Below, in pieces: positions 21,093 through 36,446 of a stretch of DNA of 64,000 bases. Every line of letters begins with the position of its first letter. Within the stretch, counting starts at the first letter, position 1. Made by a program: the position numbers and the translations under genes. This DNA comes from Roseicyclus sp. (GTDB lineage Bacteria > Pseudomonadota > Alphaproteobacteria > Rhodobacterales > Rhodobacteraceae), in contig JAGYLB010000111.1 in NCBI GenBank assembly GCA_018401055.1, forward strand, positions 1 to 64,000, in the 5' to 3' direction. Below the pieces are notes generated by a model. It was given only the letters and a program-made list of their open reading frames with translations, ran no database searches and had not been told where the DNA came from.

Positions 21093-21169
21093 GCACTGGT
21101 AGCTCAGTTGGATAGAGTACTTGACTACGAATCAAGGGGTCGGGGGTTCGAATCCTCCCCAGTGCGCCA
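21093..21169 (+). tRNA. tRNA-Arg (anticodon ACG)
   Basis: 77 bases fold into a full cloverleaf: acceptor GCACTGG/CCAGTGC, D-arm with a G-T pair, anticodon stem CTTGA/TCAAG around the loop CTACGAA (anticodon ACG at positions 34-36), T-arm with TTCGAAT and an encoded CCA end. ACG is normally edited to ICG to read CGN codons. The 3' end is the integration site of the element that follows. Confidence 0.97.
21156..21169. repeat. attL: tRNA-Arg 3' end copy of the 14-bp direct repeat
   Basis: TCCCCAGTGCGCCA, the last 14 bases of the tRNA including CCA, repeated exactly at 36433-36446 in the same orientation. Confidence 0.88.
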
Positions 21170-21225
21170 TCCACATATTTGATTGCTGAAAAATCAAACA
21201 CTTAGACGCCACCGTCTGAAGTGAT

Positions 21226-21250
21226 TGTGTAGCAAAATGTGTATCAAAAT
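21226..21250 (+). repeat. subterminal repeat near attL (possible integrase arm site)
   Basis: TGTGTAGCAAAATGTGTATC with following A-rich bases is closely matched at 36317-36341 (TGTGCAGCAGAATGTGTATC) in the same orientation, with only two or three differences. The two copies lie just inside the two att sites, where arm-type integrase sites are expected. Confidence 0.5.
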
Positions 21251-21307
21251 TTTCCTCTCTGAGGGTGCCAGCTCTTCGCCATAACTTGCTTGTCAAGTCC
21301 CTTCGTG

Positions 21308-21335
21308 ATATCCGATAATTGAACTTATCGGATAT
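21308..21335. promoter_or_regulatory. 28-bp perfect inverted repeat just upstream of the left integrase
   Basis: ATATCCGATAA and TTATCGGATAT are exact 11-bp arms around a 6-base centre. It ends 7 bp before the integrase ATG at 21343, so a bound repressor or an mRNA hairpin here would block expression of the integrase. Confidence 0.65.
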
Positions 21336-21342
21336 AGACCCC

Positions 21343-22285
21343 ATGTCAGATGGTTTTTTGCCCTCTCCCCCTACTCAACATTCGGAAGATCTCGAGGCCC
21401 AGCTTGCGAGCTATGCCGCGATGTCCCGCGGCGCTTTTGCGCAGAACACGCTGCGGGCGATCCGGTCGGACACAGAGATTTTCGCGACCTGGTGCGCAAG
21501 GAACGGAGAAAGCTTCGGTCCACCTGCCGCGCCTGAAACACTCGCCCGGTTCGTCGACGCGATGGGAGAGACCCGGAAACCGGCCACCGTGTCTCGCTAT
21601 GTGGCCTCCATCGACCATCTGCACCGCGCGCTCGATCTGTCCGTGCCCGGAGCATCCAACACCGTGCGCCTAGCCTTGAAGCGGCTGCGCCGGGCCAGAG
21701 GGCACCCGGCAGGATCAGGCCAAGGCTCTGCGTTGGCCCACTATCCAAAAGGCGCTCGACCGCCTGGGCGATGACCTCATTGATCTGCGCGACGCGGCGC
21801 TGCTGTGCCTTGCCTACGACACCTTCGCCCGTGCCTCGGAGCTGGTCGCGATAAATGTCGGGGATCTGGAGCGCGACATCGACGGGGCGACCTGTTTCAT
21901 CGCAAGGTCCAAAACTGATCAGGATGGCGAGGGCGATCACCGCTTTATCGCGTCGACGACCTATGACCGTATCATCGCCTGGACGAGGGCGGCGCGTCTG
22001 GACAGGGCAGACCCGCTGTTCATCCCGCTAGGTTTTGCCGCAAAGAATGAGCGGATCGGCACCCGTGACGTGTCCGAGATCTTTCGGCGGCGCTGCGGCG
22101 ATGGTTACAGCGCCCACAGCACGCGGGTTGGAGCGGCGCAGGATGCGAAGGTGGCAGGGGCAAGCACGGGCGCCATCGCGCAGGCAGGGGGGTGGAAGTC
22201 GGAACAGATGGTTGGGCGGTATACCGCCAAGCTCCGCGCGCAGGAGAGTGCGGCAGCGATGCTGGCGCGGGCGCAGGGGCGATAG
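21343..22285 (+). CDS. tyrosine-type site-specific integrase (one frameshift)
   Basis: About 314 residues. The N-terminal SAM-like DNA-binding domain (AFAQNTLRAIRSDTEIFATW, and ETRKPATVSRYVASI) is followed, after a frame change near 21715, by the catalytic domain: Arg in FARASELVAIN, the box SAHSTRVG with His and Arg, GGWKS, and the Tyr in MVGRYTAKL. It lies directly next to tRNA-Arg/attL. It differs clearly from the second recombinase at the other end of the element, so the element has two non-homologous candidates for integrase. The ATG at 21343 lies after an operator-like palindrome. Confidence 0.85.
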
Positions 22286-22432
22286 CATCAGCAAAACTTG
22301 GAACTGGGCAACCCGCCCAAGGCTTAGCGAGCAGCTCAGATTTGGGCTGAAACAACGGGACACTTGAAAAGCTCTCACTGCGCTGGCCGTACCCGTCCGA
22401 AAGATTGTTGCCTCAAATGTGCAACTTGGCCA

Positions 22433-22455
22433 AGGTGGCGGAGTTGCCACATTTT
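22433..22455. promoter_or_regulatory. shared operator-like palindrome, copy A (upstream of the restriction gene)
   Basis: AAGGTGGC-GGAGTT-GCCACATTTT, a dyad with GTGGC/GCCAC arms, 53 bp before the restriction gene start. Two related dyads with the same core and centre occur at 34738-34763 and 34808-34824. Confidence 0.55.
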
Positions 22456-22507
22456 TTGGGTCAGATCACTTGCCGATGACGCAACATAAATCTAGGCCGG
22501 AGACCGC

Positions 22508-25500
22508 ATGACAGAAACGTTCTTTGCCCAGCCCATTCTGAACTCCCCTTACGAATATCCCGGGCGGCATTGGGAACTTGACGCAGACGGCCAGCCGACA
22601 GCCAAGATCGTTGAGAAGCGCAGAAGGTCGGATCTCGTTACCCCGGTCCCCAAGCCGAAGAAGCGGAAGGCGTCACGGACGGATCAGTCGGAGTTGCTCC
22701 TCGCGGACAGCGAAGGGCTGTCGAGCTTGTCGCAGGAATACAATCCGACCCCCATCATCAACGAAATCCGCGGTTACGTTGACCAATGGCGATCTTTGTC
22801 GAACCCCAACGATTGGGGCGTGACACCGGAAACGGCGCGTCTTCTGCAGCATTGGCGCCATCACAAATTCGAAGGCATCCGCCCGTTCTTCTGTCAGGTC
22901 GAGGCCGTTGAGACGGCGATCTGGTTGACCGAGGTTGCTCCAAAGCTTGGGCCAAGAACCGCGAAGTTCTGGGAGCACATCAAAGGTGCGAACGCGCAGG
23001 CAAATCCGGAGTTGCTCCGTCTTGCGCTCAAGCTTGCGACTGGGGCCGGCAAGACGACTGTGATGGCGATGCTGATTGCATGGCAGACAGTCAACGCAGT
23101 GCGCCATCCGAACAGCAAGACCTTCTCGCGCGGTTTCCTGATTGTCGCGCCCGGCATCACGATCCGAGACCGGCTGCGCGTCCTGCTGCCGAACGATCCG
23201 GAAAGCTACTATCGCAATCGCGAAATCCTGCCGCCCGACATGCTGCCAGATATCGACCGGGCCAAGATCGTCATTACCAACTATCATGCTTTCAAGCTTC
23301 GCGAGCGATTGAGCCTTGCGAAGGGAACGCGCGACGCTCTGGCCGGTTGGCGGGGCGAGCAGATCGCGACCGTCGAGACCGAAGGTCAGATGCTTCAGCG
23401 GGTCATGCCCGAGTTGATGGGTATGAAGAGCATCGTCGTCCTGAACGACGAAGCCCATCACTGCTACCGCGAGAAGGTCGCTGATCCTGAAGGCGATACG
23501 CTTGACGACCTCAAGGGCGATGAAAAAGCGGAAGCCAAGGAAGCGAGCGAAGCCGCGCGGATGTGGATTTCCGGGCTGGAGGCCGTGAAGCGCAAGCTTG
23601 GCGTCTCGCTGGTTTACGACCTGTCCGCGACCCCCTTCTTCCTGCGTGGCTCGGGCTACATCGAGGGGACATTGTTCCCTTGGACGATGAGCGATTTCTC
23701 CCTTATGGACGCCATCGAATGCGGGATCGTGAAACTGCCGCGCGTGCCGATTGCCGACAACGTCCCCGGTGGCGACACACCCAAGTTCCGCAACCTGTGG
23801 GAGTATATTGGGAAGAAACTTCCAAAGAAGGGCCGCGGGGCGGGCAAGGTGCTCGACCCTCACAGCCTGCCCATCGAACTGCTCAACGCGGTCGATGCCC
23901 TATACGGCCACTACAAGAAGACCTTCGAGCTTTGGGATACCGAGGGCATCGGCGTGCCGCCCGTATTTATCGTGGTCTGCAACAACACCGCGACCTCGGA
24001 ACTGGTCTACAAATACGTCTCCGGCTTTGACCGGCAGAACGACGACGGCACCACCACCCTGGAAAACGGCCGTCTCGACCTGTTCCGGAACTATGACGAC
24101 TTTGGCAACCGTTTGCCTCGTCCGAACACGATCCTGATCGACAGTGCTCAGCTCGAAAGTGGCGAGGCGCTGGACAAGGATTTTGAGGCCGCCGCCGCCG
24201 ATGAAATCGAACGTTTCCGGCGTGAGATCATTGAGCGGACGGGTGACGCCCAAGCCGGTGATAAGATCGAGGCAAGCACGCTTTTGCGCGAGGTGATGAA
24301 CACCGTCGGCAAGAAGGGTAAGCTGGGTGAGCAGATCCGCTGCGTCGTCTCGGTCTCCATGCTGACCGAAGGCTGGGACGCCAACACTGTGACCCACATC
24401 CTAGGGGTTCGCGCCTTCGGCACGCAGCTCTTGTGCGAACAGGTAGTCGGCCGCGGCCTGCGGCGACAGTCCTACGACCTGAACGACGACGGCCTGTTCA
24501 ACGTGGAATACGCCGACATCCTCGGCATTCCCTTCGACTTCGCGGCCAAGCCCACCATCTCGCCACCCCAACCGCCGCGTCAGACCGTCCGCGTTCATGC
24601 TGTGAAGCCCGAGCGTGATGCACTGGAAATCGTCTATCCGCGGGTCGAAGGCTACCGCGTCGAACTGCCCGATGAACGGCTCGACGCTAAATTCGGCCCA
24701 GATCACGTGCTGACGCTGACGCCCGATCTGGTCGGGCCCTCGAAAACCGAGAACCGGGGGATCATCGGCGAGGGTGTCACTCTCACCCTCGAACACCTCC
24801 AAGAGATGCGGCACTCGACGCTCGTCTACAACCTGACGCAACACCTGCTCTACGCGAAATACCGCGATCCCGGCGACCAGCCCCGGATGCACCTGTTCGG
24901 CCAGCTCAAGCGGATCGTGCGGCAGTGGCTCGACGCGGGCTGCCTCGAATGCAAGGGCGACACCTATCCCGGTCTCCTGATGTATAAGGAGCTAGCCGAC
25001 ATGGCTGCCGAACGCATCAAGGCGGCCATCACCGAGACATTGCAGGGCGACAGGCCAGTCAAGGCGATCCTCGACGCCTACAACCCCACCGGCACCACGG
25101 CGCATGTCAACTTCACCACTTCCAAGGAAACCCGCTGGGAAACCGATCCCCGCAAGAGCCACGTCAACTGGGCGATCTGCGACAGCGACTGGGAGATCGA
25201 GTTCTGCCGCGTGGTCGAGACGCACCCCAAGGTCCTGTCCTACGTCAAGAACCAGAACCTCGGGCTCGAGGTGCCATACCTGATGGGCTCCACCCCGCGG
25301 AAATACATCCCTGATTTCATCGTCCAGATCGATGACGGGCGGGATGACCCCTTGAACCTGATCGTCGAGATCAAGGGCTACCGGGGCGAGGATGCCAAGG
25401 AAAAGGCCAACACCATGCGCGCCTATTGGGTGCCCGGCGTGAACAACCTGGGCAAGTTCGGGCGCTGGCAGTTCGCGGAATTCACCGCCGTCTACGAGAT

Positions 25501-25558
25501 GGAGAAAGAGTTTCGCGGACTGGTCGAAACCTTGGTGTCAGGAGGACAGGATGTCTGA
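22508..25558 (+). CDS. type III-like restriction endonuclease (Res: SF2 helicase plus PD-(D/E)XK nuclease)
   Basis: 1016 residues, intact. The SF2 motor has Walker A LATGAGKTTVMA at about residues 178-188, motif II LNDEAHHCYR at about 311-320, SVSMLTEGWDANTVTHILG and motif VI CEQVVGRGLRRQ at about 643-654. Near the C-terminus PDFIVQID and EIKGYRGED (about 934-960) form a PD-(D/E)XK nuclease site. From memory it matches the family that annotation pipelines call BPTD_3080 restriction endonucleases. GGAG lies before the ATG. A methyltransferase gene follows two genes downstream, so this is the cutting and translocating subunit of a type III-like restriction system; the order res before mod is unusual, since mod normally comes first. 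Confidence 0.93.
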   Translation: MTETFFAQPILNSPYEYPGRHWELDADGQPTAKIVEKRRRSDLVTPVPKPKKRKASRTDQSELLLADSEGLSSLSQEYNPTPIINEIRGYVDQWRSLSNPNDWGVTPETARLLQHWRHHKFEGIRPFFCQVEAVETAIWLTEVAPKLGPRTAKFWEHIKGANAQANPELLRLALKLATGAGKTTVMAMLIAWQTVNAVRHPNSKTFSRGFLIVAPGITIRDRLRVLLPNDPESYYRNREILPPDMLPDIDRAKIVITNYHAFKLRERLSLAKGTRDALAGWRGEQIATVETEGQMLQRVMPELMGMKSIVVLNDEAHHCYREKVADPEGDTLDDLKGDEKAEAKEASEAARMWISGLEAVKRKLGVSLVYDLSATPFFLRGSGYIEGTLFPWTMSDFSLMDAIECGIVKLPRVPIADNVPGGDTPKFRNLWEYIGKKLPKKGRGAGKVLDPHSLPIELLNAVDALYGHYKKTFELWDTEGIGVPPVFIVVCNNTATSELVYKYVSGFDRQNDDGTTTLENGRLDLFRNYDDFGNRLPRPNTILIDSAQLESGEALDKDFEAAAADEIERFRREIIERTGDAQAGDKIEASTLLREVMNTVGKKGKLGEQIRCVVSVSMLTEGWDANTVTHILGVRAFGTQLLCEQVVGRGLRRQSYDLNDDGLFNVEYADILGIPFDFAAKPTISPPQPPRQTVRVHAVKPERDALEIVYPRVEGYRVELPDERLDAKFGPDHVLTLTPDLVGPSKTENRGIIGEGVTLTLEHLQEMRHSTLVYNLTQHLLYAKYRDPGDQPRMHLFGQLKRIVRQWLDAGCLECKGDTYPGLLMYKELADMAAERIKAAITETLQGDRPVKAILDAYNPTGTTAHVNFTTSKETRWETDPRKSHVNWAICDSDWEIEFCRVVETHPKVLSYVKNQNLGLEVPYLMGSTPRKYIPDFIVQIDDGRDDPLNLIVEIKGYRGEDAKEKANTMRAYWVPGVNNLGKFGRWQFAEFTAVYEMEKEFRGLVETLVSGGQDV

Positions 25559-25650
25559 TTTTCATCCTTGCACCATGGCATTTATCCACATACATTATGT
25601 GCACATTCGCCCCTTGGCAGTATGCCCTCCCGTGATCCTGGGAACGGCAG

Positions 25651-25672
25651 AGCCCTTGGGGCTTTTTCTTTT
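25651..25672 (+). terminator. terminator-like hairpin between restriction and NYN genes
   Basis: AGCCC-TTG-GGGCT is followed by TTTTCTTTT. The stem is short (5 bp), so it may act as a weak terminator or attenuator that lowers expression of the genes downstream of the restriction gene. Confidence 0.5.
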
Positions 25673-25687
25673 CGCGGGGGCGCGCCC

Positions 25688-26422
25688 GTGAAAGCAGCGA
25701 TACTCATCGACGGCGGCTACTTTCTCAAGCGCCTTGGAAGCGTCCGCCGTGACGTCGACACGCTCGATCCGGAGGCCGTAGACAAGGCTATCGGCCAATT
25801 GGTCGACAGCCACCTCAAGCAGCTCAACGAAATCGAAAAAGCAGGGCACGCCTACAGCCTGCTCTACCGTTGCTTCTTCTATGACGCCCTTCCCTACATG
25901 GAGAAAGGCCACCTACCTGTATCGGGCAGAGCCATAGATTACGCCAAATCGGATCAGGCCCGGTTCAGGCTTGCGCTGTTCGACAAGCTGCGCCGCCGCG
26001 CCAACTTCGCGGTTCGCCTGGGACAGGTGCGCAAGGAAAGATCCTGGGTCCTGTCGGAGGATGCACAAAAAGCCTTGCTTGACGGCACGCGGCAGCCTTC
26101 GGATCTGACAGATGCCGATTTCTACCCGGGCCTCCGGCAAAAGGCCGTCGACATGCGCATCGGCGTCGACATCGCATCCATCAGCCTCAAGCGTCAGGCC
26201 GATACCATCGTTCTTGTGGCAGGCGACAGCGATTTCGTGCCGGCCTCCAAGCTCGCACGGCGCGAAGGCGTCCGGATTATCCTCGATCCGATGTGGCGGT
26301 CGGTCGAGGCCTCTCTTTTTGAACACATCGACGGTTTGCGCAGCGGCTTTCCGAGGCCCAAGCCCAAGGAAAAGACAGCCGCGGCCACTTCTGCCCCCCA
26401 ACCTTCAGACCAAGGGGAATAA
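25688..26422 (+). CDS. NYN-domain (PIN-like) protein, probable ribonuclease
   Basis: 244 residues from a GTG at 25688. AILIDGGYFLKRL gives the first conserved Asp, VDMRIGVDIASISL the middle acidic residues and VLVAGDSDFVPASKLA the third acidic cluster; these form the metal-binding site of NYN/LabA-like nucleases. The C-terminal tail (about 30 residues, KPKEKTAAATSAPQP) is Pro/Ala/Lys-rich and probably disordered. It sits between restriction and methyltransferase genes and ends 3 bp before the methyltransferase ATG, which argues for a function in the same system, perhaps RNA cleavage during phage attack. That role is inference. Confidence 0.85.
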   Translation: MKAAILIDGGYFLKRLGSVRRDVDTLDPEAVDKAIGQLVDSHLKQLNEIEKAGHAYSLLYRCFFYDALPYMEKGHLPVSGRAIDYAKSDQARFRLALFDKLRRRANFAVRLGQVRKERSWVLSEDAQKALLDGTRQPSDLTDADFYPGLRQKAVDMRIGVDIASISLKRQADTIVLVAGDSDFVPASKLARREGVRIILDPMWRSVEASLFEHIDGLRSGFPRPKPKEKTAAATSAPQPSDQGE

Positions 26423-26425
26423 CCC

Positions 26426-29342
26426 ATGGCCAAGAAACCCATCGAGGTCGAAACCCTCACCCACGACGCCACGCGCAAGAACATTCCGACCGCGGAATTC
26501 GAAAGCATCATGCGCGAGCAGGACAAGACGCCGATCCAGCTTGCCTACGCGCGCCGCAACCGCGATCTGGACCCGCAGCTGGTCTGGCGCGGCAAGGATG
26601 AGCAGGACTGGTCAGACCTGATCGTCGCGGCCCCGCCGCTCTATATCCAGGAAAAGGTCCATCCCAAGGCGATCATCGACGACCTCAAACGCGCCTCGCA
26701 AAAACGGGCCGAGGCGCGGGCGGCGGTCGAGGCGCCGATGATGGACCTGTTCGCCGATTTCAACGGCCTGCCCGATGCCGAGGCCGCGACCGAGTTCTAC
26801 GCCCATGACCAGCACTGGTCGAACCGGATGATCTCGGGCGATAGCCTGTCGGTGATGGCGTCGCTGGCGGAACGCGAAGGGCTGCGCGGGCAGGTGCAGT
26901 GCATCTATTTCGACCCGCCCTATGGCATCAAGTTCAACTCGAACTTCCAGTGGTCCACCACATCGCGCGACGTCAAGGATGGGGCCAAGGACCACATCAC
27001 CCGCGAGCCCGAACAGGTGCGCGCCTTTCGCGACACCTGGAAGGACGGCATCCATTCCTACCTGACCTACCTGCGCGACCGGCTGACCGTGGCGCGCGAT
27101 CTGCTGAGCGAGAGCGGCAGCATCTTCGTGCAGATCGGTGACGAGAACGTCCACCGCGTGCGGGCGCTGATGGATGAGGTATTCGGGGACGAGAATTTCG
27201 TCTCACAAATTACCTTCACAAAGACTTCCGGTTTGGAGACAAGCGATGGCGTTTCGGGCGCCTTCGATTATCTATTGTGGTTCTGCAAACGCAGAGGAAG
27301 CCTAAAGTTCCGTCCTGTGGTTCGCGAACGAAGTCAGGCCTCGCAAGATCGTTTTAGCTCCGTCCAAATGATTGACGGTAGCTCCATTCCATTGGGAAGC
27401 GATGCTTACCAGGAAATGCAACGACGGGGCGAATGGTCGCGAGTATTCACTGACACAGACCTTACCAAGCCAGGGCCTGGTGCGAAGTATGATGTTTCCT
27501 TTTGGGGTCTTCTGATTAACTCAGGGGAACGTTGGTGGGGAACCCAACAACAAAGCATTGATCGCGTTGGCCGCGCGCATAGACTTTTTCTGACAGGGCG
27601 AAAGAAGCTCCGGTTCGTTCGCTGCGAAGACGACACCGGTGGCCAGGGAATTACGAACAACTGGAGTGATATTGGCGGATCGGTTCAAAGCAGATCAGAC
27701 CCAAAGGTCTACGTGGTTCAGACTGGAACTGCTGTCGTTGCGCGCTGTATTCAAATGACCACCGACCCCGGCGACTTGGTGCTCGATCCCACCTGCGGCT
27801 CCGGCACCACCGCTTACGTTGCTGAACAATGGGGGCGGCGCTGGATCACCATCGACACCAGCCGCGTCGCCGTGGCGCTCGCCCGCTCCCGCCTGATGGG
27901 CGCGCGCTATCCCTATTACCTGCTGGCCGACAGCCCCGAGGGGCAGCCCAAGGAAGGCGAGCTGACCCGCACCCCGCCCAAGACCACCCCCACCCACGGC
28001 AGCCATGCGCCAAGGCTTCGTCTATGACCGCGTGCCGCATATCACGCTGAAATCCATCGCCAACAACGCCGAAATCGACGTGATCTGGGACCGGATGCAG
28101 CCCGCGGTCGAGGATGCGCTCAAAGCCCTCAACACCGAACTCCGCGGCTACCCCACCCCCTACAAGGTGGAAACCGGCGGCCGCGCGGGCAAGACCATCG
28201 ACTTCACCGCCTCCGGTCAGGTCACGCTGCCCTCGGGCGAACACGCGCCTGCGAACGGCTTCATGGAATGGGAAATCCCGCGCGAGGCGCCGCAGGATTG
28301 GCCCGAGATGGCCAAGACCGCGCTCGCCCGCTTCTGGGAGGCGCGGATCGCCCGGCAACGGGAAATCGACGCCTCCATCGCCGCCAAGGCCGAGTTCGAA
28401 TACCTGTATGACAAGCCCCATGCCGCGAGGGACAAGGTCCGTGTCGCCGGGCCTTTCACCGTCGAAAGCCTGTCGCCCCACCGCACGCTGGCTGTGGACT
28501 GGGACGACGAGCTGATCGACCTGCACGAGGCGGCGGAGGGCAAGCGCCAGAAGGAACGCGAGGGCACCGACGATTTCGCCCACATGATCCTTGAGAACCT
28601 CAAGGCCGCGGGCGTGCAGCAGGCGCACAAGGAGGACCGCATCGCCTTCACCAGCCTGTCCGGCTGGCCCGGCGACCACATCTGCGCCGAGGGCACGTTC
28701 ATGGAGGGCGACACGGTGCGGCGCGCCGGCATCTTCATCGGGCCGGAGTTCGGCACCGTGTCGCGCCCCGACCTGGTGGCGGCGCGCGCGCGAGGCGGGC
28801 GATGCCGGCTTCGACGTGCTGATCTGCCTGCGCCTTCAACTACGACGCCCATTCCGCCGAGTTCGACAAGCTCGGCCGGGTGCCGCGTGCTGTAAGGCCG
28901 CGCATGAACCCCGACCTGCACATGGGCGGCGACCTGAAGGCGACGGGCGCGGGCAACCTGTTCGTGATCTTCGGCGAGCCAGACATCCGGATTTCCGATG
29001 TCGGGGAGGGCATGTTGCAGGTGCAGGTCTTTGGCGTCGACGTGTTCAAGCCGCAGACCGGCGAGGTGATTGTCGGAAGGCACCGACGGCATCGCGCTGT
29101 GGATGCTCGACACGGACTACGACGAGGAAAGCTTCTTCGTGCGTCACGCCTATTTCCTGGGCGCGAACGACCCCTACAAGGCGCTGAAGACGACGCTGAA
29201 GGCGGAGATCGACGAGGAAGCGTGGGAGACGCTGAACTCCGACGTGTCGCGGCCCTTTCCGAAGCCGAAATCGGGCCGGATCGCGGTGAAGGTGATCAAC
29301 CACCTCGGGGACGAGGTGATGAAGGTGTTTGCGGTGGGGTGA
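26426..29342 (+). CDS. type III-like site-specific DNA methyltransferase (Mod), C-terminal part frameshifted
   Basis: About 970 residues when read through frame changes near 28005, 28790, 28890 and 29078. The beta-class order is seen: catalytic CIYFDPPYGIKF at about residue 160, a long target-recognition region from about 255 to 445, then the AdoMet motif LDPTCGSGTTAYV at about 452. It would make N6-methyladenine or N4-methylcytosine. The remaining half (RVPHITLKSIANNAEIDVIW, FDVLIC, MNPDLHMGG, IALWMLDTDYDEESFF) is typical of large Mod proteins paired with this type of Res. DNA of the target-recognition part (about 27190-27760) is visibly poorer in G+C than both flanks. The stop overlaps the next ATG (TGATG). 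Confidence 0.9.
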
Positions 29343-29665
29343 TGGGAAAGAAGGGGACCTATAATGGTGGCTCAACCATTGTGAAGGCGAGCCCTTGGCC
29401 CAGTGCAAGCCGTGTGCGGACCGATAGACAGATCGGACTGCTGGATGCTCAACGCGAAGCGGTGGAAAGCCAAAAGAAGGAAGCCGAAACCTTCGTGATC
29501 AGGGCCGGTGAGGAGGAAGCTCTCAAGGCGCTGGGAACAGGCACATCGCCCAGAGGCAAGAAGCGCTTCGTCCGCAAGGGTTCAGCAAAGAAGAAAAAGA
29601 AGGCTCGCCGCGGGAAAAGTGTCCTGAGAGAGATTATTTCGAACCGGTTGCCAAAGGGCTGTTGA
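29342..29665 (+). CDS. small lysine/arginine-rich protein of the restriction cluster
   Basis: 107 residues, not recognised with certainty. It starts MGKKGTYNGGSTIVKAS; similar KGTYNGGST starts occur, as far as I recall, in other short proteins of unknown function. The middle is charged and helical, and the C-terminal third is strongly basic (KKRFVRKGSAKKKKKARRGK), which suggests nucleic-acid binding. Its ATG overlaps the methyltransferase stop (TGATG) and its stop lies 5 bp before the helicase start, so it is almost certainly translated with them. It could be an antitoxin-like partner of the RelE-like domain, but nothing in the sequence proves this. Confidence 0.75.
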   Translation: MGKKGTYNGGSTIVKASPWPSASRVRTDRQIGLLDAQREAVESQKKEAETFVIRAGEEEALKALGTGTSPRGKKRFVRKGSAKKKKKARRGKSVLREIISNRLPKGC

Positions 29666-29670
29666 GGTCA

Positions 29671-31765
29671 ATGGAATTTCGGATCGCCGACACCTTCACC
29701 GACAGTCTCGCCCGCCTGACCGCTCAGGAACAGAAGGCCGCCAAGACCACGGCCTTCGACCTGCAGCTCGACCCGAGCGCGAACGGCTTGTCGTTTCACA
29801 AGCTTGATCGGGCGAAGGACAGCAATTTCTGGTCGGTCCGGGTCAACGCCGACATCCGGATCATCGTCCATCGCAGCGCGTCGAGCATCCTGCTGGTCTA
29901 TGTCGACCACCACGACGATGCCTACAAATGGGCCGAACGGCGCAAGATCGAGCGCCACCCGACCACCGGCGCGATGCAGCTGGTCGAGGTGCGCGAGCTG
30001 GTGCAGGAGGTCGAGATCTACGGCGCCCCGCAGGCCGAGGCAGACCAGCCTGCAGCCCCAAAGCCCGCCGCGGTCTCTGCCCCCCTTTTCGCGAACCTGC
30101 GCAAGTTCGAGCTGATGGCCTTCGGCGTGCCCGCCGAATGGGTGGAGGACGTCCGCCGCGCGACCGAGGATACGCTGTTCGACGTGATCGGCCACCTGCC
30201 GCAAGAAGCGCAGGAGGCGCTGCTGAAGCTTGCCGTGGGCGAGAAGCCGGAACCGCCCGCGCCCCAGCCTGAGACCGCAGACCCCTTCGCTCATCCCGAT
30301 GCACAACGTCGCTTCCGCGTGCTGACAAACGTGGAGGAATTGAAGCGAGCGCTGGACTACCCGTGGGACAAATGGGCAGTGTTTCTGCATCCTGCGCAGG
30401 AGGATCTGGTCAAGCGGACGTTCAACGGCCCCGCGCGCGTGTCCGGATCGGCCGGAACAGGAAAGACCATCGTCGCGCTCCATCGCGCCGTCCACCTTGC
30501 GCGCGAAAACCCGCAGTCGCGCGTGCTGTTGACCACCTTCTCGAAGCCGCTCGCCAACGCTTTACAGAGGAAGCTGAACAGCCTGACTCTCAAGCGAGCC
30601 GGTCATCGGCGCGAGGATCACGGTCAAGCCGATCTCTGCAGTGGGGTATGATCTCTACACCGAGAATTTCGGGCAACCGAACCTCGCGCCAGCGCCCCTT
30701 ATCCGCAGCCTGCTGCAGGACGCCGCCCGGTTGGTGGAGGGGCATGGTTTCGCGCTGCAGTTCCTGCAGAACGAATGGGGCGACGTCGTCGATGCGTGGC
30801 ACCTCAAGACCTGGGAGGAGTATCGTGATGTTTCCCGGCTTGGCCGCAGGACGCGGATCGGTGGGAAGCAACGCGAAGTGCTGTGGCAGATCTTCAGCCA
30901 TGTCCGGCAACGCCTGAACGAGCGCAACGTTGTCACCTGGTCGGATGTTTTTGGCCGGATGGCAGATGTGCTGGCTTCAGAGCATCGCAGGCCCTTCGAT
31001 TTCGCCGTGGTGGATGAGGCGCAAGACCTGAGCGTCTCCGAAAGCCGTTTCCTCGCGGCCATGGCTGGCGCCAACACCAATGGCCTGTTCTTTGCAGGCG
31101 ATTTGGGCCAGCGCATCTTTCAGCAACCGTTCTCCTGGCGTGCGCTTGGCCTCGATGTTCGTGGTCGGTCCTTCACGTTGCGGATCAACTACCGCACCTC
31201 GCACCAGATCAGAGCGCAAGCGGATCGCCTGCTGCCCACGTCAGTCTCCGACATGGATGGTTTGAGCGATAGCCGTCGCGGGACGGTGTCCATCTTCGAC
31301 GGACCAGCGCCTTCGACATTGGTCTTTGACCGTGAGGAGGATGAAATCGCTGCGGTTGCGGATTGGATCAATGATCAGATTAAGCGGGGCGTCGACCTTG
31401 GGGAGATAGGCCTGTTCGTCCGTTCTGAGGCGCAGTTGAAGCGGGCCAGATCGGCCGTGAAAGCTGCTGGTCAAGAGGCCGTCGAACTGAGTGACAAGAT
31501 CGAAACGGATGCGAACAGGATAGCCATCGCAACGATGCACTACGCCAAGGGCCTCGAATTCAAGAGCGTGGTTGTGATGGCATGCGATGAAGAAGTGGTT
31601 CCACTGCAGACCCGGATCGAAACAGTGACCGACGAAGCTGACCTGAAAGAGGTCTATGAAACCGAACGTCACCTTTTGTATGTTGCATGCACCCGTGCGA
31701 GGGATCGACTTCTTGTTACGGCCGTCGATCCGGCGTCGGAATTTCTGGATGATTTCGGCGGGTGA
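29671..31765 (+). CDS. RelE/ParE-like domain fused to UvrD/Rep-type helicase (one frameshift)
   Basis: About 698 residues. Residues 1-90 (MEFRIADTFTDSLARL to HHDDAYKWAERRK) look like a RelE/ParE-type toxin fold. After a linker the SF1 helicase begins: Walker A SGSAGTGKTIVALH, motif II VVDEAQDLS, motif III FAGDLGQRIFQ, NYRTSHQIR, MHYAKGLEFKSVVV and YVACTRARDRLL. One frameshift near 30595 separates the first third of the helicase from the rest. GAGG precedes the ATG at 29671. Such RelE-UvrD fusions are known in defence-rich regions; here it ends a run of five same-strand genes that starts with the restriction gene. Confidence 0.87.
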
Positions 31766-31932
31766 CGCTTCTCAGCTTGGGGTGTCCGACTTGGCGGCAT
31801 TGGGGCTCCCATCGAGCAAGATAGGAAGCTCGATCATCCACACGGCGCCAACAGAAACGAGGTTGATGCGTCTGCTCGCTGTCCTTCCGATTACCCACCT
31901 CTTGAAAAAGGTCTAACCGAATTCCGCGCCGG

Positions 31933-32355
31933 TCACGTCGCATCCCAAGGGTTGATCAATGCTACCCCGCAGCCGTCGAAATCGCTGACGTTGCGCGTTG
32001 CCACCGGCGCGCCCACAGCCTTGGCGATGGCGGCGATCTGGCAATCGGCCTCTGCAATCGGCCTGCCTGCGGCGCGGCGCGTGGCGGCGATCTGAGCGTA
32101 GGGGCGGGTGGCGGTGGTGTCGAAGGGAAGGATGCGGCCGTTGAAATCCTGCTCGATCATTGCGTCGATGGCCTGCTGCAGCCGGTTGCGGCGCTGACCC
32201 TCGGGCAGGTAGGCCACCCCGGCGCGCAGCTCCGCCTCGGTCACGGCTGAGATGTATAGATCGGTTGCCTCATGCTGGGCGAACCAGTCGAGCACAGCTT
32301 GTGAGGGCTCCGCGCGCATCAGTTCCGAGATGGCGTTGGTATCGAGCAGGATCAT
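31933..32355 (-). CDS. PIN-domain toxin, FitB/VapC type
   Basis: 140 residues. MILLDTNAISELMRAEP carries the first Asp, SAVTEAELRAGVAYLP the conserved Glu, IAEADCQIAAIAKAVG the third acidic residue and ATRNVSDFDGCGV the last Asp, the complete PIN site; the protein should cleave RNA. It follows its antitoxin gene by 3 bp. Such pairs stabilise islands by killing cells that lose them. Confidence 0.92.
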   Translation of the reverse strand: MILLDTNAISELMRAEPSQAVLDWFAQHEATDLYISAVTEAELRAGVAYLPEGQRRNRLQQAIDAMIEQDFNGRILPFDTTATRPYAQIAATRRAAGRPIAEADCQIAAIAKAVGAPVATRNVSDFDGCGVALINPWDAT

Positions 32356-32358
32356 CGG

Positions 32359-32601
32359 TCAGTCGAGATCCGGGGCAGGGCGCATGGCGGTGCGAGCCGT
32401 GGGGTGCAGATCGACACCGCCGAGAGCCGCGAACCGTGCGTGGATCGATTGGCCAAGGTTCCGCGGGGCAGCGGGCCGGCCCACGACCTGGCGCAGAATA
32501 TCGCGCGCTTCCTCCTCCATCGAGCGGCCATGTTCTGCGGCACGCACACGAAGGCGGCGTTTGATGTCATCGTCGAGGTTGCGAATTGTGATGCTGGCCA
32601 T
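32359..32601 (-). CDS. FitA-like ribbon-helix-helix antitoxin
   Basis: 80 residues from the ATG at 32601 (GGAGG seven bases upstream). MASITIRNLDDDIKRRLRVR is the ribbon-helix-helix DNA-binding segment, followed by AAEHGRSMEEEARDIL of the FitA/plasmid-stability family; the C-terminal tail should bind and block the PIN toxin. A 19-bp palindrome lies 34 bp upstream, overlapping its likely promoter. Confidence 0.92.
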   Translation of the reverse strand: MASITIRNLDDDIKRRLRVRAAEHGRSMEEEARDILRQVVGRPAAPRNLGQSIHARFAALGGVDLHPTARTAMRPAPDLD

Positions 32602-32634
32602 GGTGCCCTCCGCTTGTAGGGCCAAAGCTAGAGT

Positions 32635-32653
32635 TTGATTGCACTGCAATCAA
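32635..32653. promoter_or_regulatory. perfect palindromic operator and promoter of the toxin-antitoxin pair
   Basis: TTGATTGCA-C-TGCAATCAA. On the minus strand TTGATT of the palindrome is 17 bp from TAGCTT, a plausible -35/-10 pair, so binding of the FitA-like protein here would shut off its own promoter. Confidence 0.7.
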
Positions 32654-32942
32654 GCGGTGTTGTGGCCTTCGTTGGGATGGTGACATGGCCGCGCGCTGCC
32701 ACAGGTAATTCCGGGGCGATGGATGGGGGGGAGGGCTGATTTCGGCATGTTCTTGGATGCCAAGTGTATCGCCGACCCGGAAAGCCCAATCGGATGGGAT
32801 GGTCGGTGCGAGCTGATGAAAACTTGGTCTCCGCGACTGTTTGTCGATGTTCGTTTTCCCCTAGAGCGGGGAAATAACCGAACCACTTTCCATCGCGGAA
32901 TTCTCCCGATCCCAATATATTGCCCATAGGCGTGGTGCTGCC
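32654..32942. other. 289-bp gap between toxin-antitoxin and RusA-like genes
   Basis: No coding sequence with family resemblance and no strong hairpin is visible. Base composition is lower in G+C than the flanking genes. It probably holds the upstream region of the toxin-antitoxin promoter and the 3' end of the RusA transcript. Confidence 0.4.
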
Positions 32943-33353
32943 TCAAGGCCTCTGCAGACCGCCGTTGAACACGTCGACGATCACGCAGCCGCCCGCGACC
33001 GGTGTTCCCTTGCGGATGGTGAACGACCAGCCGCTGTCATCGACATCCGCAGCGAGCGCAAGGCCGTCGAGATGGGACTTCAACGAGGCGAGCAGATTGT
33101 CGAGGTCGCGGCGGCGTTGATCCGGCGGGTGGAAGACGATCTCGATGTGCGCGTTGGCTGAGATCTGGGCGCGAATGCGCTTTAACTCCGCCCATGCCTC
33201 CATTTTTGCTGTCTGGCGGGCGCTGGTGGCGATGCGGCGGTCCACTCGCGCGTTGGGGGATAACTCGCGGGCGGGCCAACCAAGGCGTATGGCGAAGCTG
33301 TGTGCCGCTGGCTGAGGCGGCTCCTGATGAGCGCGGGGACGCTGGTGCATCAT
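32943..33353 (-). CDS. RusA-family Holliday junction resolvase
   Basis: 136 residues. LSPNARVDRRIATSARQTAK near the front, then EIVFHPPDQRRRDLDNLLAS and KSHLDGLALAADVDDS provide the acidic cluster of RusA endonucleases, which cut four-way junctions. It is a typical gene of prophages and replicating elements. GGGAGG precedes the ATG at 33353. It lies downstream of the Rep-like gene, with the palindrome array between them. Confidence 0.9.
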   Translation of the reverse strand: MMHQRPRAHQEPPQPAAHSFAIRLGWPARELSPNARVDRRIATSARQTAKMEAWAELKRIRAQISANAHIEIVFHPPDQRRRDLDNLLASLKSHLDGLALAADVDDSGWSFTIRKGTPVAGGCVIVDVFNGGLQRP

Positions 33354-33479
33354 GGGCTGCCTCCCTCAGCTTCTTTCCCACCGGGACCAAAATCGTGCGT
33401 GGTGAATACTGGCGATTGCCAATCAAACCAAGCATGTGGCGCGGTGAGGTTTTTCCCATATTGGATGGTAGATAAGGAT

Positions 33480-33617
33480 GTCACCAAAACTGTGACGTGC
33501 CGCACCTCGCCAAAGACCGTTTCGTCACCAAAATTGTGACGGCCTGTCATTCTTTTGGTGACGCACCACATGTTAGACGTCACCATTATTGCGACGGGCC
33601 GTCACCATTTTGGTGAC
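33480..33617. repeat. array of five near-palindromic 17-bp repeats, phased by 11 bp (iteron-like)
   Basis: Copies at 33480-33496, 33524-33540, 33546-33562, 33579-33595 and 33601-33617, consensus GTCACCAAAATTGTGAC. Start-to-start distances are 44, 22, 33 and 22 bp, all multiples of 11, so every copy faces the same side of the helix. The last two copies lie inside the 3' end of the winged-helix gene. Position and phasing suggest binding sites of that protein: an origin-like iteron array or a cooperative operator. Confidence 0.75.
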
Positions 33618-34073
33618 AGGCTTTTTCGCTTTCTTCCCGCTTGGATTGTGCACGGCTGCCTTTTGGACGGGGAAGTCCTCGCCTTCACGCCACTCGAGAT
33701 AAAGCTTTCGTCCGACCGGCTTATTGGAGTTCGGCATAGGCAATTCGGTGAGTTCGAACGCAGGGCACTTCGCCGCGCCCCCAAGCCCTAGGTGTGCAGG
33801 TTCGCGGACTACAATGAACCCTTTCGCTTGAAGAGCGTGGAAGGCTCGGGCGGCAGTGTTGATACTCACGCCCATTTTTTCCGAAACCTGCCTTACGCTC
33901 AAGCGGATCTTGCCGTTGTTATTCGCCCTGGGTCCCCGCCATTCGAATTTCAACCACACATAAAGGATTTGAGCAGTTGTCGATAACGAACGCCAAGCTT
34001 TGGTTTCCATCATGGCTCGCATCATCTTCGTGAAGTGCTCAAACGATTGCTCGTTGTTCTTATCGCGTCCCAT
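33573..34073 (-). CDS. winged-helix/HTH protein, possibly Rep-like
   Basis: 166 residues from the ATG at 34073 (GGAGG upstream). SLSTTAQILYVWLKFEW and KIRLSVRQVSEKMGVSINTAARAFHAL form a winged-helix domain of a kind common in replication-initiation and phage regulatory proteins of alphaproteobacteria. The C-terminal tail is basic (KKAKKPVTKMVTARRN) and is encoded by DNA that also contains two of the phased palindromes. The start overlaps the stop of a small ORF (TGATG). Replication function is inferred from context only. Confidence 0.75.
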   Translation of the reverse strand: MGRDKNNEQSFEHFTKMMRAMMETKAWRSLSTTAQILYVWLKFEWRGPRANNNGKIRLSVRQVSEKMGVSINTAARAFHALQAKGFIVVREPAHLGLGGAAKCPAFELTELPMPNSNKPVGRKLYLEWREGEDFPVQKAAVHNPSGKKAKKPVTKMVTARRNNGDV

Positions 34074-34303
34074 CAGCAACCTCCCCCCTTGGCCTCGAAG
34101 TGATCGGAAAGCCAGTGTTGCTTCACGCGGTTGTTGGTCTCCTGTTTGAGGCGGTGACAGCGAAACAAGCTGGCGCGCCGGAAAAAGCCGATCAGCGACG
34201 CGTGACGCGGAGGGGAGGTGATCAAAGCGACGCCTGGCCCGATCAGGCGAGACACCGCCCCCGTCGCGCCTGCCAGCGCGCCGGGGTTCATATTTGCCAC
34301 CAT
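34073..34303 (-). CDS. small ORF between alpA and the winged-helix gene
   Basis: 76 residues, family not recognised. A glycine/alanine-rich hydrophobic first half (ALAGATGAVSRLIGPGVALI) is followed by a basic half (FFRRASLFRCHRLKQE). Its ATG lies 3 bp after the alpA stop and its TGA overlaps the next ATG (TGATG). This tight fit on both sides is the main reason to believe it is translated. Confidence 0.6.
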   Translation of the reverse strand: MVANMNPGALAGATGAVSRLIGPGVALITSPPRHASLIGFFRRASLFRCHRLKQETNNRVKQHWLSDHFEAKGGGC

Positions 34304-34306
34304 GGG

Positions 34307-34510
34307 TTAGCCTGCCGAGGTTTCGCGGCTTTCCTGCCAAGCAGCGATCTCGTCCACCCGCCAGCCAACCGCGCGGAGACCAAGCTTCACTGGGCGAGGA
34401 AAAGTGGGATCGAAATAGCGGCTTTTGGGGTTCAGGCGTTCGTAAATGGCCGAACGGGAAAGCCCCGTCAGCTTCTCGACTTCGCGACGCCTTACGATAC
34501 GGACAACCAT
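34307..34510 (-). CDS. AlpA-family phage-type transcriptional regulator
   Basis: 67 residues from the ATG at 34510. IVRRREVEKLTGLSRSAIYE is the MerR-like helix-turn-helix of AlpA, and FPRPVKLGLRAVGWRVDEIAAW the remaining wing. Such proteins regulate excision and integrase genes of integrative elements, often as excisionase-like activators. It heads a three-gene minus-strand operon with the small ORF and the winged-helix gene. Confidence 0.93.
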   Translation of the reverse strand: MVVRIVRRREVEKLTGLSRSAIYERLNPKSRYFDPTFPRPVKLGLRAVGWRVDEIAAWQESRETSAG

Positions 34511-34604
34511 ATGCGTTTCCTCAATTTTTCTCCAAAGAACGCTTGCTTTGGGTTTCAGTTGAGGCAGACTGCGCGCGGGGGGACGTGTCGTTTTCCCAGC
34601 ACAG

Positions 34605-34638
34605 GCCCCGTATCGTTGTTGGCGCAAGGATACGGGGC
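34605..34638. repeat. 10-bp perfect inverted repeat upstream of alpA
   Basis: GCCCCGTATC and GATACGGGGC with a 14-base centre, 95 bp before the alpA start. Either an operator or a stable RNA hairpin in the leader. Confidence 0.6.
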
Positions 34639-34737
34639 AACCTGAAACTCTGCCGGACTTTCCAGGCATCTGTAGACTTGCCTTGCAACAGCCCTCGCGC
34701 AAGAGATTTTTTTGCCAACTATCTGATTTGGCGTAAT

Positions 34738-34763
34738 AAAAGGTGGAAGAATTGCCACCTTTT
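34738..34763. promoter_or_regulatory. shared operator-like palindrome, copy B
   Basis: AAAAGGTGG-AAGAATTG-CCACCTTTT, perfect 9-bp arms. Same core and same dyad centre as copies at 22433-22455 and 34808-34824. Confidence 0.6.
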
Positions 34764-34807
34764 GGATGTAAAGAGGGGTGGGAAAATCACGTATTGCGTG
34801 GTGTTCT

Positions 34808-34824
34808 AGGTGGCAGTTCTGCCA
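34808..34824. promoter_or_regulatory. shared operator-like palindrome, copy C
   Basis: AGGTGGCAGTTCTGCCA, containing the perfect dyad TGGCAG-TT-CTGCCA. It aligns with copies A and B about the same centre; copy B lies 67 bp away. Confidence 0.55.
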
Positions 34825-34992
34825 TTTTCTGACGCGCAAACTTTTTTCGACGGTGTCGCGCATTGAACAGCAGGGCCGCGTCGTCGTCGCCCTTTCGGTC
34901 GCCCCGTCACTATGTTCGAGTTTTCGAAACGTCTCGGGTCAGAGGTCGAAACGCCCTTGTTCTAAGCCGAGATCCCGTGGTCATCCGTCGCG

Positions 34993-36270
34993 TCACAGAG
35001 CGACGCTGGCGAGGATTTCGTGGAGCTGCTCGAGCCTCGCGCCCGCTCCGTAGCGCTCCCGATTGGCCAGCTTGTGCCCCATGAGGTCGCGCCGGATGCG
35101 CTCGTCCACGCCCGCGGCCAGCAGGCAATCCTCAAAGCTGTGGCGAAGGCCGTAGAGCGTGTGACCGGGGCTTTCACGCAGGCCGTTCTCCCGCAGGTAT
35201 TTGTTCACGATGGCGGTGAGAGACGCGCTGTCGCGGTAGCGTGGGAAGCCGTCGCGGCATGTCTTGAACGCCTCTAGACTGACACCGACCACGGGGATCA
35301 GCCGCTCGGACTGGCGTGTCTTGAGCTTGCGGTAGCGCCCATTGATCGAGATGTGCGGGATGGTCGTGTCGAGCCGGATGTCCTCCTGCCTCAGTTCCGC
35401 CCCCTCGGAGGGGCGGTATCCCGTGTTGATCATGCCCAATAGTATGCCGCGCGCCTCGGTATTCAGACCATCTAGCGCGCCGGGAGCGAGCATCTTGTCG
35501 CGGATCCAGTCGTCGGAGAAGGGCAGGCGGGTGTTCTGTTCGGCATCCTTGAAGCGAACGCCTGCCGTTGAGAAAGACAGCCCCATACGGCGTACGGTGC
35601 TGACATGGCGCAGGACCGCAAAGGCAAGGGTCATCTGCTTGTTGGCGGTGGCGCGGTTCATCGCACCGGATCTGACCTGCGCCCAAAGAGCCTCTCGGAA
35701 ATCAAGCATTTCGTCGGGGCCGAGTTCGGCCACGTCGACGTCGCCCACGGCCTCGATCAGCAGGCCGATCGCACGGGTGCGGGCATTGCGCCAGACACGT
35801 TCCTGATTTCGGGTCATGGCCTCGCTGCGATCCTTGGACACGTCGAAGAAGATTTCGAGGGCGCGCGATATGGTGATCTTCGCGGGGGGGACCAGGCCCA
35901 GCAGCGCAGGCGCGACGATGCGGTCGAAGCGCCCATCGCGCCCTGTCGCGGCCTCAACGCGGGAAAGCAGCTCCTCGAGCGGCCCTGTTGCGATTTCCTC
36001 GTTGGGTTTGTAACGGAAACCGTGCGCCTTGGCGATGCGCCGGGCGGCCTCCATCTGTTGGTCGGCGGCCGCTGTTTCCCCGAAAAGCCTAGCCTCCCAT
36101 GCCTCGACCATTTCCGACCACGCACCGTCGGCACGGATGCGAGCTTGGCGTAAACTGTCGGTGTGTAGGCTAACCCAGACCGATGTGCGTTTCTCAACGC
36201 TTTTGAAGCGCCGTGGCACGCGGCGTCGGAGGTAATAGATGTCTCCGCGTAGGACTGGATCGGCTGTCAT
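34993..36270 (-). CDS. tyrosine-type site-specific integrase, probable integrase of the element
   Basis: 425 residues, intact. The N-terminus (DIYYLRRRVPRRFKSVEKRT) is the DUF6538-type arm-binding start common in alphaproteobacterial island integrases. The catalytic part has Arg in TGYRPSEGAELR, HTLYGLRHSF with His and Arg, LMGHK, and the Tyr in NRERYGAG. It lies 163 bp inside attR, reading inward. As the only undamaged recombinase and with the repeats near attR, it is the best candidate for tRNA-Arg integration. Confidence 0.93.
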   Translation of the reverse strand: MTADPVLRGDIYYLRRRVPRRFKSVEKRTSVWVSLHTDSLRQARIRADGAWSEMVEAWEARLFGETAAADQQMEAARRIAKAHGFRYKPNEEIATGPLEELLSRVEAATGRDGRFDRIVAPALLGLVPPAKITISRALEIFFDVSKDRSEAMTRNQERVWRNARTRAIGLLIEAVGDVDVAELGPDEMLDFREALWAQVRSGAMNRATANKQMTLAFAVLRHVSTVRRMGLSFSTAGVRFKDAEQNTRLPFSDDWIRDKMLAPGALDGLNTEARGILLGMINTGYRPSEGAELRQEDIRLDTTIPHISINGRYRKLKTRQSERLIPVVGVSLEAFKTCRDGFPRYRDSASLTAIVNKYLRENGLRESPGHTLYGLRHSFEDCLLAAGVDERIRRDLMGHKLANRERYGAGARLEQLHEILASVAL

Positions 36271-36316
36271 GGAGGCAACTCGTCCACTACGCGTGCGGCC
36301 TGCTCAAGCCTAAAAA

Positions 36317-36341
36317 TGTGCAGCAGAATGTGTATCAGAAA
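36317..36341 (+). repeat. subterminal repeat near attR (partner of 21226-21250)
   Basis: TGTGCAGCAGAATGTGTATC plus A-rich bases; it nearly matches the copy next to attL in the same orientation. Possible arm-type integrase site. Confidence 0.5.
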
Positions 36342-36432
36342 ATAGCCCTACGGTTGTAAAATCACGCAAGATTTCAAAATAAACAAGCATAAACAATATC
36401 TTAAAAGTCATTCTGTCCGAAAGTTTGGCGGA

Positions 36433-36446
36433 TCCCCAGTGCGCCA
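36433..36446. repeat. attR: 14-bp copy of the tRNA-Arg 3' end
   Basis: TCCCCAGTGCGCCA, identical to 21156-21169. It marks the right boundary of the element; chromosome resumes after it. Confidence 0.88.

Follow-up and report, generated by a model that had tools for sequence, protein, structure and literature searches.

A restriction-like three-gene core with two variable gaps in a predicted tRNA-Arg island of Roseicyclus sp.

We analysed a stretch of 64,000 nucleotides from Roseicyclus sp. (assembly GCA_018401055.1, contig JAGYLB010000111.1; hereafter the window), and in particular five genes on its forward strand between positions 22,508 and 31,765, which encode a restriction protein (Res), a NYN-domain protein, a methyltransferase (Mod), a small basic protein and a RelE-like domain fused to a UvrD-type helicase (RelE-UvrD). 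Comparisons among genomes point to a conserved three-gene core, Res-Mod-RelE-UvrD, that appears to be widespread and to contain two variable gaps, one between Res and Mod (slot X) and one between Mod and the helicase (slot Y). The locus is best read as a type III-like restriction system extended by an ArmD-like subunit, with two slots for cargo. We consider it probable that the window carries a mobile anti-phage island inserted in a tRNA-Arg gene, in which a restriction-modification (RM)-like core of three genes is combined with interchangeable cargo.

Res (22508..25558, + strand) and the NYN-domain protein in slot X (25568..26422, +; listed start TTG) are each encoded in a single open frame. 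They are followed by Mod, a beta-class amino-methyltransferase of the type III kind, which has a long C-terminal region (26426..29342, +), by an orphan basic open reading frame (ORF) of 107 amino acids (aa) in slot Y (29342..29665, +), and by the RelE-like domain fused to a UvrD/superfamily 1 helicase (29671..31765, +), which is ArmD-like. An earlier note on this DNA had proposed that these genes form one extended five-gene defence system. Its coordinates, strand and domain calls are correct according to Pfam and NCBIfam profiles, with the RelE part of the helicase below the Pfam cut-off, and so are the absence of long gaps and the two tight junctions, namely a TGATG overlap between the Mod stop and the small-ORF ATG at 29342 and five bases between the small-ORF stop and the helicase ATG. 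All five genes are present, but Mod (five frame segments) and the helicase (two) are not single open frames here. A 261-aa ORF at 28880-29665 was considered as the small protein and rejected, as its first 63 residues match Mod and the intended ORF starts at 29342.

Linkage of these genes was assessed in two sets of sequences. The first comprises 81 loci, namely the best 80 of at least 581 Res relatives on genome contigs and one plasmid (L081, p6 of Gemmobacter fulvus), and is biased towards close relatives. It spans Alpha-, Beta-, Gamma- and Deltaproteobacteria, Planctomycetota, Verrucomicrobia, Nitrospira, Acidobacteria, Spirochaetes, Chloroflexi, Firmicutes and Cyanobacteria, with many metagenome-assembled genomes (MAGs). 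Only matches downstream of Res on the same strand were counted in this set, and strand agreement is therefore given by construction. Four loci end too early to show Mod, leaving 77 readable ones. The second set is an even sampling of 398 genomes across the phylum to which the genome with L001 belongs; among the collected loci, L001 is the nearest relative of the window locus (a Rhodobacteraceae MAG whose Res is 92% identical). The selection was independent of similarity to the window and includes L001 itself (as G001). Counts over readable loci take in short loci where UvrD happens to show, and the stricter counts are limited to loci where 9.5 kb or more of sequence follows Res.

In the first set, Mod is found downstream of Res in 76 of 77 readable loci (the exception is L002), and Mod precedes UvrD in all 53 loci that have all three genes. 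RelE-UvrD follows Res in 43 of the 49 loci that satisfy the stricter rule, and the count becomes 54 of 60 once shorter loci with a visible RelE-UvrD are included, some of them incomplete or truncated. Among the 398 genomes, 27 contain a Res above the cut-off of the NF046055 model; two of these are distant, four are truncated at the end of a contig (G186, G118, G158, G190) and 21 are readable. Res, Mod and RelE-UvrD occur in this order in 18 of the 21 readable close Res loci (in G019 across two contigs) and in 14 of the 17 loci under the stricter rule, counted by hand. The same association is seen from the side of the helicase. UvrD matches at E ≤ 1e-30 are present in 29 of the 398 genomes, and 19 of them are near full length with 50–100% identity (in G176 in two pieces); the other ten are short fragments or 28–36% matches. 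Eighteen of the 19 genomes with a close UvrD also have a Res over the cut-off, and in the nineteenth (G005) the match is at a contig edge. The probability of 18 shared genomes by chance is 1.3e-23 when kinship is ignored. The suggestion that the locus is more than a bare Res/Mod pair is thus borne out, with RelE-UvrD as a recurrent third component.

The gaps between the core genes are often long and their content changes. In the first set, 400 bp or more separate Res from Mod in 55 of 76 loci (slot X, up to 4.1 kb) and Mod from the helicase in 40 of 53 (slot Y, up to 5.8 kb); the 398-genome sample, with G001 left out, gives 18 of 21 and 11 of 16. ORFs in the gaps were chosen mechanically and yielded 146 proteins in 91 clusters, part of which are probably spurious ORFs; 27 clusters occur in slot X and 66 in slot Y, with only two in both. 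When the 21 multi-member clusters were shuffled between slots, the mean number found in both was 14.7, and none of 5000 shuffles gave a value as low as two. Cargo also differs between close relatives: for pairs with Res at least 90% identical, no slot X cluster is shared in 13 of 22 pairs and no slot Y cluster in 8 of 12, where a gap without an assigned ORF counts as different and two empty gaps count as the same. The shuffle, pair and chance figures all ignore relatedness. One such pair, L009 and L010, has Res proteins 98.5% identical, the same slot Y clusters and one slot X cluster in common. The second slot X gene is a NYN gene in L009 and a different 245-aa gene in L010, and we suggest a recent exchange at this position.

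Clusters whose longest member is shorter than 110 aa, or which are masked, were excluded beforehand, and ten of the remaining 62 slot Y representatives were set aside by eye; the family scans thus covered all 22 slot X representatives and 52 of the 62 in slot Y. The 17 families detected in slot X include Schlafen AlbA_2, Bro-N, GmrSD, Fic, YhcG, PIN, NYN, DUF3800, ASCH and ORF6N. The 25 families listed for slot Y, out of 42, include AAA/SMC-like ATPases, TIR, ThsB, SLOG, KAP, HerA (DUF87), HNH and RhuM. Up to 25 families were likewise listed of the 239 for slot Y and of the 53 in the PADLOC scan of slot X; among the PADLOC matches listed are IetA, NsnB, AriA, PtuA and PDC candidates in slot Y, and SoFic, IetS and PDC candidates in slot X. 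The cargo thus includes named defence families (IetA, ThsB-type TIR, SoFic, GmrSD). A known defence pair lies inside the operon: an AAA ATPase resembling IetA, as seen by a scan in L034, and an S8 peptidase, as seen by a scan in L077. By blastp clustering this pair occurs in slot Y of L034, L035 and L042 and in slot X of L077, and its clusters are the sole two that appear in both slots.

The NYN protein of the window matches PF01936 with 38.2 bits (cut-off 24.2) and, weakly, the PADLOC model HEC-09 (E 0.0047). It is probably an active RNase, because ten aligned homologues all retain the acidic residues D48, D201, D220 and D222. A NYN gene occupies the Res-Mod gap in 5 of 76 first-set loci (L005, L007, L009, L020, L075); in L005, from Tabrizicola flagellatus, slot Y is empty. 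Among the 398 genomes it was found in 20, with four in the Res-Mod gap (G019, G126, G134, G190), one directly upstream of Res (G158), one at an unreadable position on short contigs (G118) and 14 apart from Res, Mod and UvrD, some of these on contigs that end close by. The small 107-aa ORF has no relative among the collected loci (best E 0.62), and a search of 5.8 billion proteins, relying on shared short words, matched only the ORF itself; it may be cargo that evolves rapidly, or an ORF that arose by chance. L001 has no gene in slot X, and its slot Y holds a 102-aa ORF unrelated to that of the window. The NYN gene and the small protein of the window accordingly look more like interchangeable extras, in slot X and slot Y, than like core parts. 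The single five-gene unit of the earlier note is not supported by these comparisons, as neither the NYN gene nor the small protein is a recurrent member. The note had named, as grounds for chance proximity, that Res/Mod homologues mostly lack the additional genes and that these mostly occur elsewhere; by this measure its proposal is refuted for the NYN gene and the small protein, and not for the helicase.

Res is assigned to NF046055 (the BPTD_3080 family) with 1360 bits against a cut-off of 800, and ResIII (PF04851) also scores above its cut-off. It contains the motifs GAGKT (179), DEAH (314), SAT (373), QVVGRGLR (645) and PDF...EIK (from 935), as expected for a superfamily 2 (SF2) helicase with a C-terminal PD-(D/E)XK-like nuclease, the nuclease call being based on the motif and the NF046055 family name. 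The match to PF19778 (19.4 bits) stays under the cut-off of 23.4, the protein falls outside the NCBI type III Res model PRK15483 (23.3 bits against 564), and a search of PDB sequences with the L001 Res gave no match at E 0.01. Mod contains an N6_N4_Mtase domain, and its first segment matches the PADLOC type III methyltransferase model PDLC03632 with 647 bits. Its motif IV (DPPY, 163) stands ahead of motif I (DPTCGSG, 454), the order of the beta class. In its first half, Mod is similar to EcoP15I Mod (4zcf, E 2.2e-21) and to a second Mod (6k0w, 9e-22), and past about position 489 no PDB sequence match was found at E 0.001. L033 was left out of the Mod alignment owing to a stop codon. A predicted structure of Mod (predicted local distance difference test, pLDDT, 54.8; predicted template modelling score, pTM, 0.32) was set aside and supports no claim. 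The Res family has a name in NCBIfam and the Mod family is present in PADLOC. Canonical type III systems are defined as a two-gene mod-res unit in the order Mod-Res. The window locus resembles them in its EcoP15I-like Mod and in a Res made of an SF2 helicase and a C-terminal nuclease motif, but differs in the order Res-Mod, in the gap between the two genes, in the third recurrent gene, in the C-terminus of Mod and in a Res that fails the type III model.

The RelE-like domain of the third core protein, a region of 100 residues, is strongly conserved across phyla, with 34 invariant positions in 27 sequences. All 27 match PF05015 at E ≤ 0.05 (best 1.8e-5), the first of them below the cut-off. RelE proteins have the topology strand-helix-helix-strands, and the same order is seen in the model of the L001 helicase (mean pLDDT 84.5; blocks of residues 1-110 at 78-92). 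We regard the domain as RelE-like, though unproven. Foldseek was rejected as a test of this assignment, since the 50 matches listed are helicases and complexes containing helicases.

A fusion of this kind is known from another defence system. In the available excerpts of a preprint (PMC12458937), ARMADA type II (ArmABCD) requires all its genes, including ArmD, a GajB-like helicase that carries a RelE-like domain and has an essential Walker A lysine. The window helicase is 31–33% identical to RelE-UvrD proteins of ARMADA-like loci, which were recognised by their neighbours and not through the published ArmD. Six homologues from the 398-genome sample (L169-L174; 32–35% identity) are each preceded by a large ORF of 1266-2134 aa. 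The two of these ORFs that were scanned (L169, L174) contain DEAD, Helicase_C and MZB domains, consistent with the YprA-like gene in ARMADA type II. On plasmids of Thermus and Allomeiothermus (L224, L226), homologues 36–37% identical, which carry no annotation beyond 3'-5' exonuclease, lie downstream of a large DEAD/DEAH helicase with a DNA methylase nearby, also an ARMADA-like setting. The window operon resembles ARMADA type II in that such a fusion closes it, the ArmD identity being judged from the neighbour-recognised loci. It differs in that Res and Mod stand where ArmA, ArmB and the YprA-like ArmC would be; no YprA-like, BrxHII-like or PglX-like gene was found among the nine island proteins scanned.

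It is already known that restriction operons can have other defence genes embedded in them. Payne et al. 2024 reportedly treated embedded defences. In the excerpts available, DarTG2 is embedded in a type I restriction operon of the RptR island (PMC12255303), PrrC and RloC lie among type I restriction genes (PMC3710099), and inserts in the hsdS-hsdR gap vary (PMC12255303, PMC3710099). As in the window core, unrelated effectors sit among restriction genes; the systems described there are of type I with one gap, whereas the core studied here is type III-like with two. The BREX-related Hma systems centred on DUF499 combine a helicase, a methyltransferase and an ATPase with other defence genes embedded nearby, as far as the excerpts of PMC8565338 and PMC12839542 describe them. 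The window shares this general plan, and its NYN protein has the weak HEC-09 match, but no Pfam match to DUF499 (the HmaC ATPase) was found among the nine island proteins scanned. We rejected the assignment to Hma, which is DUF499-based according to the same excerpts. Among the best matches in open PMC papers, none was found to describe the three-gene core or a pair of cargo slots within it.

The operon lies in what is predicted to be an island of about 15.3 kb (21156-36446), as indicated by a synteny break, a short repeat and an integrase. Synteny with genomes G477 and G445 ends at the 3' end of a tRNA-Arg (ACG) gene (21093..21169, +), the left boundary. The last 14 bp of this gene (21156-21169) are repeated exactly at 36433..36446 (+), a probable right attachment site, which is adjoined by a tyrosine integrase with a DUF6538 domain (34993..36270, −; PF00589, PF20172). 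A second tyrosine integrase-like gene right after the tRNA (21319-22285) seems to be divided between two frames; the C-terminal piece matches PF00589 (5e-13) and the N-terminal piece no family. Behind the operon, the island also carries a VapBC-like pair of a PIN-domain toxin and a FitA-like antitoxin (31933-32649, −).

The frames of two core genes are broken in the window. Mod is distributed over the segments 26426-28003, ~27912-28799, 28786-28827, 28826-29068 and 29073-29339, and the helicase over 29671-30588 and 30590-31762, with a break near 30588. In L001, Mod (944 aa) and the helicase (695 aa) are one ORF each. To put these breaks in context, window positions 1-21 kb were checked by eye against genes of G477, G445 and G467 at places with at least 47% identity, and frame changes were seen at 4 of 18 chromosomal gene places outside the island, near 11.23, 14.10, 16.79 (weak) and 20.44 kb. 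The window sequence therefore looks error-rich. In the same region, the ORF at 17441-19609 is a fusion of two genes that are separate in relatives. Because chromosomal genes are frame-shifted as well, the operon does not stand out by its breaks, and the likelier cause appears to be sequence error and not decay.

A decayed, non-functional locus with Mod and helicase pseudogenes is nonetheless a rival that we consider rather unlikely but take seriously, because three of the four frame changes in Mod are packed within about 290 bp; there is a further one in the helicase, and the integrase-like gene after the tRNA is split too. Decay is countered by the chromosomal frame changes, by the open frames of Res and NYN, and by the 67–98% identity that the Mod segments keep to the L001 Mod, with 97.8% over the final 89 residues. 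An ordinary two-gene type III-like RM system in a defence island, with the helicase and cargo genes serving defence independently and merely collecting there, would accommodate the Res loci without UvrD and that part of the cargo which consists of known defence pairs (IetA; S8 peptidase/IetS). We judge it unlikely, since a close UvrD comes with Res in 18 of 19 genomes and stands last in 53 complete loci, and since cargo turns over between close relatives. A fixed five-gene system with the NYN and the small protein as working parts draws on the single strand, the overlaps or short gaps, and the NYN genes in the same gap of five other loci out of 76 and of four genomes out of 398; it seems very improbable in view of the arrangement in L001, the 14 of 20 genomes with NYN apart from Res, and a small protein for which no relative was found.

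Our preferred reading, a three-gene core with interchangeable cargo, has its own difficulties. As sequenced, the window copy is without an intact Mod or helicase frame. Six of the 49 first-set loci lack RelE-UvrD within about 10 kb of Res, and three of the 21 readable loci in the second set (G126, G106, G066) lack it with no match in these genomes at E 1e-30, so RelE-UvrD may be dispensable. The distant Res proteins (31–33% identity; G254 and G124, loci L163 and L165) have Mod upstream and no UvrD match, a second architecture of the NF046055 family. Some gap ORFs are probably spurious, and the controls take no account of relatedness. The RelE-like domain has no PDB sequence match and a Pfam score under the cut-off, and the ArmD link depends on the recognition of ARMADA-like loci by their neighbours.

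Gene content, order, linkage, domain families and cargo turnover were obtained by computation; for the biochemical steps we infer the following scheme. By family, Mod would methylate host sites, and Res would translocate on and cut DNA with unmodified sites. Because of its relation to ArmD, RelE-UvrD would act as the usual third subunit on the DNA of the restricted or stalled invader, with the RelE-like domain possibly acting on RNA. The gaps between core genes would house exchangeable accessory effectors, and the NYN protein, a predicted RNase, would most likely be a second-line effector co-expressed with the core. PrrC, in a type I restriction locus, is unleashed when restriction is blocked, and by analogy the NYN protein could perhaps be released in the same situation. 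A bolder extension, which we offer tentatively and do not expect to hold in full, is that the core is an unnamed platform spanning phyla, whose slots X and Y draw on separate effector pools and whose cargo is kept silent by the core until restriction is blocked, with the window NYN RNase as a guarded fail-safe and the RelE-like domain as a built-in second RNase.

If the proposed organization is correct, type III-like restriction would be tied to ARMADA through a related RelE-UvrD subunit, and the core would provide a searchable anchor, such that any gene in slot X or Y becomes a candidate defence gene. The near-separate repertoires of the two slots would also raise the question of why position matters, with transcript order, protein contact and recombination as possible reasons.

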